Assembly (NCBI GenBank): GCA_963971425.1
Contig: OZ020520.1
Location: 28,799,535 to 28,863,534 of the forward strand
Origin: Bryoerythrophyllum caledonicum
Taxonomy: Eukaryota > Streptophyta > Bryopsida > Pottiales > Pottiaceae
Direction of reading: 5' to 3'
Length of the DNA: 64,000 nucleotides
Positions within the stretch are counted from its first letter, which is position 1. Each line of letters opens with the position of its first letter. This document shows, piece by piece, positions 27,281-42,610 of this stretch. Below the pieces are notes generated by a model. That model made no database searches. It was not told the origin of the DNA and saw nothing but the letters and a program-made list of their open reading frames with translations. A program made the translations under genes and the position numbers.

Positions 27281-30200
27281 ATGGACGTGGTACAGCCGTC
27301 GAAGGCGGTCGGGGGGTCGGACATTTTCCAGTCCGGGGGGTTTGGAGAGTTGCAGATTGGGCAGTTGGGCGACCAGGACGAGGTCGTAGAGATCGACAGC
27401 GACGACAGCGACGATGCGGTGGCGCAAGTCGACGTCCGGAATGACGCATCAGGTGCGTTGTTCTCCGCAGGATTTTGTGTTTTCCATAGGGGTAGTAGTG
27501 TGTTGCTGATTTGAGATGCGTGGAGCACAGCTGGAGCTCGCACTGGAGCCAAGTCCATGGCGGGCAGCTCACTGGCCCCTCCAGAAGCGTCTAGTGGTTC
27601 CTCCCACAGGCGAAGAGAGGCCTCCTCGGTTGGACGCTCCAGTCGCTCCATCGTCGTGGGCACTGACAAGCCCTCACCTCGGGATTCAGACACGTTGCTC
27701 CCCAATGCAGAGCGCTCAAGTTTCAAAGAGCAGCGGACGCAGATGTCCGTCAGCGCTCGCAAGCAGGGCCAGAGCAAATCCGTGGAACTAGATGGAGCTA
27801 GAGATGCACAGGTTTGACACTACTTGCTCGTGTGTGTCTTCACTTGTAGTATCTGCCTCAACATGAGAAATTGACTAGCGTACGGTGTGCAAGTTGATAG
27901 AATCTAAGGATAACTGGAATGGATTTTCTTTATATGGAGTAGAATCTGTATCGTAATCACATGTGTGTCTGGGAAAGGACCAGTATGTGTGGAGTTTTTA
28001 ACCAGACTCATGTGAACAACGTGTTTGCAGATGATCTCCAAAAGAAAGGCGGAGCCATCGACGTCAACCACACCTGTGAAGCGTGCAAAGGTGGATCCCA
28101 GTGCTGAGGAGAAGCTTGTGTCTCAGAAAGGAGATTCCCCTTCGAAGAGGAAAGAGAATTTCGAAGAAGAAGAGACTCTCGTTGAATTGGTGAGAGAGAA
28201 GCGGCACCGGAAGCTCGTCCTCGGAGATGACACGGACGATGAGGATCCACAATGTACAGGAAACCTGGAAGCTGATGCCGAGCGGAAGAATTTGGCGAAA
28301 GTGTCTCCGACGAAAGATTCTGGTTTGGCCACAGGCAGTGGTAAACAAGTAATTGAGGAACAACCACTATCGCTTCCAGGTATCTACATTCCCTGTCTGA
28401 GGCTGGAGCTGTAATGTTTGTTTCCAGTACTCTTTCATCATTTCTAGTACTAATTGTTCCTAATTACATGGTGAATGCATGTGTGTATGTGCATCTTAGC
28501 AACTCTTATAGCAGTCTCAACTTGGGTTTGATTATGCTCTTGGGAGGCGGGTGTTCTGTAGAGGAATAGGTGTTTGTTCGATTTCGGTTACGAACAATAT
28601 TTGTTAAACGGGCGTATTTACACTTTTAACGTTTGCAGGTGAAAATGAGGTTGCGCCCTTCCGAAGTGCATTTCCCTTGTACGCTAGGAAGAAAGTGCAT
28701 CCTCCAGTTTCTGGTTTCAGCAAATCACCTGCAGGGTCAAGGTTTTACGAGGAAAGAACCACATGGATTACTTGTACGAAGTGCAAGAAGGTTCGAAAGT
28801 AAGTACTTTTTTGCTTGCACTGGGCATGAATTTGCACCTTCAAACATGAATTATTTGATACTTACTCGGTTTCTGGACAGGGTAAATGCCGATATGAAGT
28901 TCAAGAGAACTACTTGGTGTTGTGAAGAGAACACTCCAGATCCCAAGTACGCGAGTTGCTCAGCGCCTCAGGTTCTTGAAACGTTTCAGCTTGTGGTCTG
29001 AGTACATTTCTTTCATCTTTCTAATTTTATTGCAGTGTGAATTGGGACCTTCTTTAGTGTGAATTCTGTTATGCTTGTAGGAACAAAACGGCTATAGGAA
29101 AGCAGGAAAGGTCCCTGCTGACGATCCAGAAGTACCACCGGAAAGAGAAGCTGGGACAGAGGAACAAGTGACGTTGAGTCATAGCAAGGACACTGTGAAG
29201 GATAAGGATGTAGCACGACGAAACATGGTTTGGGTGAAGGTGTGCTTCTCCAAGTTAACCATTCTGGTGAATATGTCGCGTTCATGTCTTAGCAAGGTTC
29301 TGAGAAGTCATTAGGCAATTTTGTGCTACATGAATGTAACCCCGAGAAGTTTGTCAAAATTAATCAATCGTAGTTTGGGCTGTTTTTTTGGCTGTCAGCT
29401 TTATCGTGTTTTAGATTTATCAATCTTAACCAACTTTCATTCTTCACGGCTATGTTCAACAGCTCCAGGTAGATGGGAAGGAGCTCTATTGGCCTGGACT
29501 GCAAGTTACAGATATTCAGAAGTGTGACACAGTCGCTCAAAAGAAGTATGCGAAGGGCATCGAAGGATTTTCTGGTCAAACTAGACTTGTGCGCCTTTTT
29601 CATCCTCGAGAAGACGTGGACGAGGTCCAGGTCGTGAAACGAAGGTCGGAATCCATCTCTTCTCCTCTTTTTTTCCTCTTGCACCATATGAAGTTGTGTG
29701 CTTGCTCTCTAACTAATTTTTGTGTTCTGGAGCTTACTGATTGGATTTGTTCACTGCAGCTCGGTGAAGCCTTTCCAGCAGGCGCGTCTGAGCTACATGC
29801 ACAGCAGTTCTCATCCTTTCTTCGTAGCCGCGGTCACTGCAGCCGACGAGTATTATGTTGAACCTGATGCCGCGATGGGCATGTTCTCCCAACCTGCATC
29901 CGGCAGCAATGTAGATGCTACTGATGAGGGTGCTGGATGTCATCTAGAAGATCTGCCTGATGAAGAGGCAGAGTCCAACGAACCTGACTCTGAAGGTCCT
30001 GAAACTCCCGGGGATGATCTTCAAGGAAGCCTGCCCCAAACTGACAATGAGATGGATATCCTAGAAGATGGAGAAGTCAACCAAGTTCCTGTTGAAGAAG
30101 ATGTTTCTCCTGAAGCTGAAACTGGTTCTGATTCACGTGATAAGCGAGGCGATGAAGCTGGAAATGGGTCTGGCTCAAGTGATAAGGCCGATAAAGGGCA

Positions 30201-42200: not shown

Positions 42201-42610
42201 CACCCCTTTCGTTCCAAGATCCAATATTGTCTATAATCCGGAACAGTGTACCCTCTCTACCCCAAGAGGATGCTGTGGTCTCACCCCCTGTTGCAATATC
42301 TTCTCCGGATCTTCAGCAAACTGCTTCTACGGGAATCCAAGGCGGCAGTTTACTTAATCCTCAATCTGGAGCAGGAGATGCTCTTTTATCTGAGATGTTC
42401 CAGAGTTCAGAAGCAATCCCTGGCCCGGACTTAGACTCTGGAGCACATCGTGATGAGCTTCATATCAGTGAGGGAGTTCAGGTTCTGTTGAGCAGCGGCC
42501 CTGAAGTACAGGAGCCTCTTGTTGCAAATGTTGGGATGCAGGAGCCGCTTGTGGCAAGTGCTTCTATGCCACCGAGTTTGATTTACTTGTCAGACAGTGA
42601 TGAGGATTAA
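27281..42610 (+). CDS. MOM1/CHD3-like chromatin protein: CW, PWWP, 2 PHD, 2 chromo, degenerate SNF2
   Basis: Exons: 27281-27452, 27531-27811, 28031-28379, 28639-28798, 28881-28971, 29081-29239, 29463-29644, 29760-30959, 31200-31382, 31583-32185, 32388-32820, 32919-33197, 33709-33867, 34043-34306, 34573-34725, 34815-35093, 35177-35332, 35452-36183, 36294-36644, 36912-37355, 37587-37697, 37820-38596, 38742-40097, 40379-40480, 40728-40920, 41089-41241, 41355-41636, 42072-42610. All junctions are GT-AG and phases match throughout, giving 3,380 aa. Domains: SIM-like [11 protein letters not shown] (35-45); CW zinc finger (W310, C313, C316, W333, C335, C347); PWWP-like (MVWVK at 400, YWPGL at 413); PHD1 (855-898) and PHD2 (1117-1160), each split by an intron; chromodomains (~1205-1271 and ~1272-1350); SNF2 ATPase (~1365-1800); Pro/Glu repeats (~2084-2190); GVQ repeats (~2747-2900); coiled coil (2959-3056); C-terminal [10 protein letters not shown]. 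ATPase motifs are degenerate: motif I reads EASQEKI in place of GxGKT, motif II DEGR for DEGH, motif [11 protein letters not shown], and motif VI lacks the RxHRxGQ arginines. The order resembles CHD3 remodelers, while the dead ATPase, long tail and coiled coil resemble MOM1, which silences transposons without ATPase activity. A nuclear silencing scaffold is the likely role. The exon 25/26 junction is the least certain. Confidence 0.88.
36979..37292 (+). repeat. In-frame coding minisatellite (PEVAREPPN, 9 copies)
   Basis: Nine tandem units inside exon 20 of the MOM1-like gene. The first two are 33 bp and most later ones 36 bp, because an extra GCT codon is present. The peptide unit is [12 protein letters not shown], with variants (VVREPP, VTRESP). 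Several central units look identical at DNA level, which indicates recent expansion or gene conversion. Confidence 0.9.
39463..39930 (+). repeat. In-frame coding minisatellite (GVQQ/GVQH repeats)
   Basis: Inside exon 23, about 30 degenerate units of 12-18 bp with consensus ACTGGTGTGCAACA encode runs of [10 protein letters not shown] and AGVQ. All length variation keeps the frame, which argues for selection on the protein. The region is Gln/His-rich and probably disordered. Confidence 0.88.

Follow-up and report, generated by a model that had tools for sequence, protein, structure and literature searches.

MOM1 is a silencer known to have originated from a chromatin remodeler. As described in 2008, the poplar PtMOM1 combines a PHD finger, a double chromodomain and a full SNF2 region with its essential residues mutated, and SmMOM1 of Selaginella has the structural features of PtMOM1 (PMC2507757). 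The same report places CMM1, CMM2 and CMM3 of Arabidopsis MOM1 at residues 953–1044, 1734–1815 and 1993–2001, respectively, and did not detect CMM2 in Physcomitrella (PMC2507757). In Arabidopsis, mutation of the leucines L1761 and L1765 breaks the MOM1 dimer (PMC3276543), and CMM3 carries a SUMO-interaction motif, VVCLS, that is dispensable for silencing (PMC6084981). Arabidopsis MOM1 acts with PIAL1/2, AIPP3, the protein PHD1 and MORC6 and can recruit DNA methylation, while its CMM2 fragment keeps the PIALs but neither AIPP3 nor PHD1 (PMC10338684). Described here is a predicted MOM1-like gene in a 64,000-nucleotide stretch of DNA (the window) from Bryoerythrophyllum caledonicum (contig OZ020520.1), with the following parts in window coordinates:

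27281..42610, forward strand: whole gene model, 28 exons, 3,373 residues, manually assembled from open segments joined at splice sites
28761..29086, forward strand: CW zinc finger, residues 309–353, exons 4–6 (Pfam, 33.0 bits, cutoff 27.5)
29222..29853, forward strand: weak PWWP domain, about residues 399–494, exons 6–8 (Pfam, isolated segment only)
30919..31299, forward strand: PHD finger 1, residues 850–896, exons 8–9 (Pfam; best PDB match CHD4)
32151..32487, forward strand: PHD finger 2, residues 1114–1158, exons 10–11 (Pfam; best PDB match CHD4)
32680..32802, forward strand: chromodomain 1, about residues 1223–1263 (Pfam, 33.7 bits, isolated segment)
32946..33095, forward strand: chromodomain 2, residues 1279–1328 (Pfam, full-length protein)
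33790..34868, forward strand: SNF2 N-lobe, residues 1390–1572, motifs I, II and III altered (Pfam, CHD4 alignment)
34953..35808, forward strand: SNF2 C-lobe, residues 1601–1818, motifs V and VI altered (Pfam, CHD4 alignment)
36115..36350, forward strand: DUF1087 of CHD subfamily II, residues 1921–1962 (Pfam, 24.5 bits, cutoff 22.8)
37329..37972, forward strand: CMM1, the MOM1-like domain PF25029, residues 2200–2296, exons 20–22 (Pfam, 34.8 bits, full-length protein)
40400..40886, forward strand: CMM2 coiled coil, residues 2964–3043, exons 24–25 (PDB match, ungapped alignment)
42569..42607, forward strand: CMM3-like C-terminus, an 11-residue SUMO-interaction-like motif within residues 3361–3373 (motif pattern, position)

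The gene is almost certainly a MOM1, and its product is very probably a MOM1-type transcriptional silencer that keeps the CHD3 readers and bears a CW–PWWP module upstream of them. An earlier note on this DNA had taken it for an intermediate between CHD3 and MOM1 and had missed the CMM elements in the downstream half. Because CMM1, CMM2 and a CMM3-like end lie downstream of the SNF2 region, in the order of MOM1, the gene is better seen as already a MOM1 than as a forerunner; the relationship to MOM1 that the note had recognized is upheld by the matches to CMM1 and CMM2 and by a tree of the C-lobe. The PF25029 profile scores 38.7 bits with the isolated CMM1 segment (cutoff 27), as against 143.7 bits for a provisional Arabidopsis MOM1 fragment, a gap that suggests a lineage remote from flowering plants. 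Among 177,635 PDB sequences, the top phmmer match of the CMM2 region is the crystal of Arabidopsis MOM1 CMM2 (3vem), at an E value of 0.081 that is not significant on its own. The two align gap-free over 80 columns with a score of 78; none of 10,000 shuffles scores above 30 (z 6.4), and the next-best window in the whole protein reaches 19. Shifting the alignment by as much as 40 residues gives secondary peaks of 19 at +11 and 15 at +7, as hendecads and heptads predict. The 11-residue C-terminal motif occupies the place that CMM3 has in Arabidopsis, and the three elements follow the Arabidopsis order, with 668 residues from CMM1 to CMM2 here versus 690 there.

The C-lobe was placed in a tree with those of human CHD4, human CHD1, yeast Chd1, Arabidopsis MOM1 and Arabidopsis PICKLE (PKL), i.e., six taxa in all. 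In this phylogeny, of a kind that the earlier note had proposed for the SNF2 region, it falls with MOM1 and not with PICKLE or CHD4: the pair is supported at 99/99, also after removal of the motif V–VI columns, and trees that force the C-lobe into a clade with CHD4, with PKL or with both can be rejected (p 0.0017–0.0042). Long-branch attraction was considered as the source of the grouping and rejected. Simulation under an alternative topology produced a false MOM1 pair in 9 of 60 trees (one of three topologies being scored). Of 60 parametric replicates, 14 showed a likelihood gain for the MOM1 pair, the largest being 2.3 log units and thus far below the 24.7 observed.

Several points, together with the E value of CMM2, weigh against this assignment. 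Both Arabidopsis fragments in the tree, MOM1 and PICKLE, are provisional reference sequences; Pfam assigns the PICKLE fragment to SNF2 at 273.1 bits and the MOM1 fragment to PF25029, but the latter match supports the CMM1 part of the fragment and not the letters of its C-lobe, with Helicase_C remaining below cutoff. The taxa are only six, and the branches of this protein and MOM1 are long. In raw phmmer scores the C-lobe is closest to CHD4 (117.3), followed by CHD1 (104.5), MOM1 (102.1) and PKL (100.2), and its highest identity, 38%, is to CHD4; if MOM1 evolves fast, this would explain why CHD4 and CHD1 score above it. A single-sequence phmmer query with the provisional Arabidopsis CMM1 finds nothing in this protein. 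Identity of CMM2 to 3vem is 19 of 80, a Pfam search with the isolated region gives weak unrelated matches only, and of the eight residues that were mutated in the study of Arabidopsis CMM2, four lack a hydrophobic counterpart here; the counterparts of L1761 and L1765 are Ile and Tyr. As for the C-terminus, the SUMO-interaction pattern is matched three times in the protein versus 1.1 expected per shuffle, and CMM3 is too short for statistics.

The chromatin readers precede the SNF2 region. Pfam, searched with the full-length protein (families reported up to E 10, 14 in total) and with isolated segments, bears out the CW, two PHD and two chromo modules described before. The PWWP-like module of that description stands in part: searched as a segment on its own, it scores 28.2 bits, above the cutoff of 25.6, but it is absent from the full-length report at E 10, and a PDB search with the segment returns 6 matches with no PWWP among them. 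The CW finds MORC3 as its best PDB match, and in the alignment with MORC3 the first Trp of the cage is present while the second is replaced by Val. The methyl-lysine cage of CW domains includes two Trp residues, one forming the floor and the other the right wall, and in MORC2 the floor Trp is lost and H3K4me3 is not bound (PMC5811534); the spacing of Thr496 and Trp505 of MORC2 assigns the first MORC3-aligned Trp to the floor and the second to the wall. With Val in place of that second Trp, the CW may have lost the ability to read methylated H3K4. In ZCWPW1, the CW–PWWP pair binds H3K4me3 and H3K36me3 (PMC7237205), and the ZCWPW type has both cage Trp residues alongside a PWWP; here, with the second Trp lost and the PWWP weak, one reading is that of an inherited dual reader, now partly decayed.

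The cysteines and histidine of both PHD fingers line up with those of CHD4, and both fingers have the same two-residue GK insert relative to it. PHD1 and PHD2 score 154 against each other, 119 and 138, respectively, against the first PHD of CHD4, and 146 and 144 against the second. The shared insert argues for an internal duplication of the PHD, though the two fingers may instead descend one-to-one from two CHD PHDs. As the CW–PWWP and PHD1–PHD2 links rest on predicted introns (28972–29080 and 31383–31582) at or outside domain edges, it might be supposed that the model merges an upstream CW–PWWP gene with a downstream MOM1. This is quite unlikely: the introns at these two weaker links are just 109 and 200 bp long with the frame free of stops, and a single exon of 1,200 nucleotides (29760–30959) extends from the PWWP end into PHD1, the second half of which lies in exon 9.

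The ancestry of this MOM1 in CHD3, as the earlier note had held, is borne out by CHD4 being the best PDB match of the SNF2 region and both PHDs and by the presence of DUF1087. In the full-length search, SNF2 scores 90.9 and Helicase_C 33.9 bits, with HDA2-3 also reported; against PDB, the chromo-SNF2 part scores 211.8 bits with CHD4 and 161.9 with the best ISWI. The CHD3 C-terminal set consists of DUF1087, DUF1086 and CHDCT2. Only the first of these is found, the other two being absent from the 14 Pfam families at E 10. The PHD, two chromodomains and SNF2 of a CHD3 are all present, whereas its intact SNF2 ATPase motifs are not. One might see in the full CHD3 module set, DUF1087 and the top raw score of the C-lobe to CHD4 a remodeler part way to MOM1, predating the MOM1-specific silencing domains, yet CMM1, CMM2 and the CMM3-like end in MOM1 order speak against this, and it is considered very unlikely.

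In comparison with CHD4, motif I is changed from GLGKT to SQEKI with the lysine column retained, motif II from DEAH to DEGR with DE retained, motif III from TGTPLQN to LSEPLKS and motif VI from RAHRIGQ to KIHNEGE, and motif V has lost three residues. The full-length SNF2 region with lost catalytic motifs, as first described, is confirmed by this alignment, with motif V to be counted among the altered ones. Motifs I and III coincide with the exon joins 13/14 and 15/16, respectively; mis-splicing, tried as a source of the loss, does not account for it, because the six frames of 33001–36700 contain no intact pattern for any of the motifs I, II, III, V and VI. The retained lysine and DE count in the other direction, in that the region may still bind ATP, and they would also suit an active ATPase of unorthodox kind. 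As motif I has lost its glycines, motif III its TGT, motif V three residues and motif VI both arginines, such an enzyme is highly improbable.

The rebuilt gene model begins and finishes at the same coordinates as first claimed, 27281 and 42610; the spliced model likewise stands, but at 3,373 rather than 3,380 residues. All 27 introns are GT–AG, with lengths of 78–511 bp (median 175 bp), and the G+C content is 0.50 in coding and 0.39 in intron sequence. So many short introns speak against a conifer or most ferns and, taken with the low CMM1 score, lean weakly toward a bryophyte or some other seedless plant. Exon junctions fall within domain ranges in 16 of 27 cases (15 if chromodomain 1 takes its Pfam range), one of those counted, junction 5–6, being only two residues ahead of the CW end. 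A decaying pseudogene or an assembly artefact, as the many lost canonical SNF2 residues and an assembly gap in the window (16031–16230) might suggest, is barely credible for a gene 11 kb from that gap, with PHD cysteines and histidine matching those of CHD4 and no internal stop in 3,373 codons, versus about 166 expected by base composition and 130 and 225 in the two alternative frames over the same exons.

Three further features lie in the stretches between the domains:

30397..30924, forward strand: uncharacterized region of about 176 residues in exon 8, separating PWWP from PHD1 and modeled at low confidence as short strands followed by helices
36977..37293, forward strand: coding tandem repeat of 36 bp, 8.9 copies, exon 20
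39474..39923, forward strand: coding tandem repeat of 15 bp, 28.8 copies, exon 23

Both repeats are in frame and extend inter-domain stretches. The exon 8 region is without a Pfam match as an isolated segment. Single-sequence AlphaFold models of this part and of exon 18 reached a predicted local distance difference test (pLDDT) of 53.9 and 32.9, respectively, too poor for use, and a fold search with the former gave 41 matches, none at an E value of 0.001. An NCBIfam scan of two protein pieces gave a single match far under its cutoff. A second SUMO-interaction-like motif, of 12 residues, is found at residues 34–45 in exon 1.

Elsewhere in the window, the 200-N run at 16031–16230 has seemingly the same coding stretch on both flanks, suggesting that sequence may have been duplicated where the scaffold was joined. 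A DDE_1 transposase remnant (17436–18248, Pfam 46.7 bits) lies in a stretch more GC-rich than its surroundings, and the open segment directly upstream of it (16504–16905) is without a Pfam match. A piece of a retroelement reverse transcriptase (45448–45726, 74.4 bits) is located 2.8 kb downstream of the MOM1-like gene, and an open segment of 472 codons (52803–54218) has one AP2 domain at 34.3 bits (cutoff 33.3). Scans of the whole window detected neither Rfam families nor tRNAs.

From these features, the MOM1-like protein is likely to act as a non-catalytic, dimeric silencing scaffold. The CW, PWWP, two PHD fingers and two chromodomains would hold the protein on nucleosomes, with the SNF2 lobes, given their changed motifs, presumably being a structural or docking body rather than an ATP-hydrolyzing motor. 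By homology with Arabidopsis, an antiparallel coiled-coil dimer of CMM2 would gather silencing partners, PIAL-type SUMO ligase-like proteins among them, a DNA-methylation pathway would be brought in via MORC proteins, and the C-terminal motif may bind SUMO. The readers of the protein itself might take part of the role played by partner proteins in Arabidopsis. PIAL genes are present in bryophytes (PMC11371177). De novo methylation in P. patens depends on DNMT3 and not on DRM (PMC10952607); in a bryophyte, the methylation step may therefore differ from that of Arabidopsis, a caveat to this scheme.

Chromatin readers on a dead motor had been put forward as the novelty of this locus, but the 2008 report already gives this arrangement for PtMOM1, and a similar one for SmMOM1 (PMC2507757). 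What appears new relative to the published descriptions, as far as their available parts go, is the CW–PWWP pair and the second PHD on a MOM1. A 2012 PWWP survey of six land-plant genomes reports no PWWP in plant SNF2 and ASH1 family members (PMC3457860), which supports the earlier view that CW plus PWWP is an unusual architecture here, and plant CHD3-like proteins are said to keep a single PHD (PMC2507757). Literature joining MOM1 with PWWP or CW yielded no MOM1 among the matches listed, and among those listed for MOM1 with bryophytes or lycophytes, no title or abstract start names a bryophyte MOM1.

In a tentative scenario, rather less likely than not, a non-vascular land plant would already have had a MOM1 with the complete set of silencing motifs and, encoded in cis, a CW–PWWP–PHD–PHD–chromo–chromo array of readers; vascular plants would later have shed these readers, and Arabidopsis would now depend for reading on the separate partners PHD1 and AIPP3. 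If true, this would overturn the published view that MOM1 coincides with vascular plants, and if the plant is non-vascular, the date of origin of MOM1 shifts to before vascular plants. The gene may show the form of an early MOM1. A MOM1 bearing readers makes it possible to ask which of them silencing needed first, how the loss of ATP hydrolysis was timed relative to the gain of CMM2, and whether partner proteins took over the reading.

Among known systems, PtMOM1 and SmMOM1 are alike in their PHD, double chromodomain, full-length SNF2 and CMMs, whereas CW, PWWP and a second PHD go unmentioned in the available description, by which alone they are compared (PMC2507757). Arabidopsis MOM1 shares CMM1, CMM2 and, putatively, a CMM3-like C-terminus in this order along with a degenerate SNF2, but its PHD, its chromodomains and the initial portion of its SNF2 have been lost, and the accessible parts of its published descriptions do not mention CW or PWWP (PMC2507757, PMC6084981). 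The CHD3/Mi-2/PICKLE proteins have in common with this one the PHD, two chromodomains, SNF2 and DUF1087; here, in contrast, the motor motifs are changed and CMMs added. The animal ZCWPW1 parallels it in having a CW followed by a PWWP (PMC7237205), to which SNF2, PHD and chromodomains are here extra, with one cage Trp missing. A further parallel might be struck with MORC2, likewise a silencing protein whose CW has its aromatic cage broken; in MORC2, however, it is the floor Trp that is lost (Thr496) next to a GHKL ATPase, whereas here the wall Trp has become Val in a protein built on SNF2 (PMC5811534).

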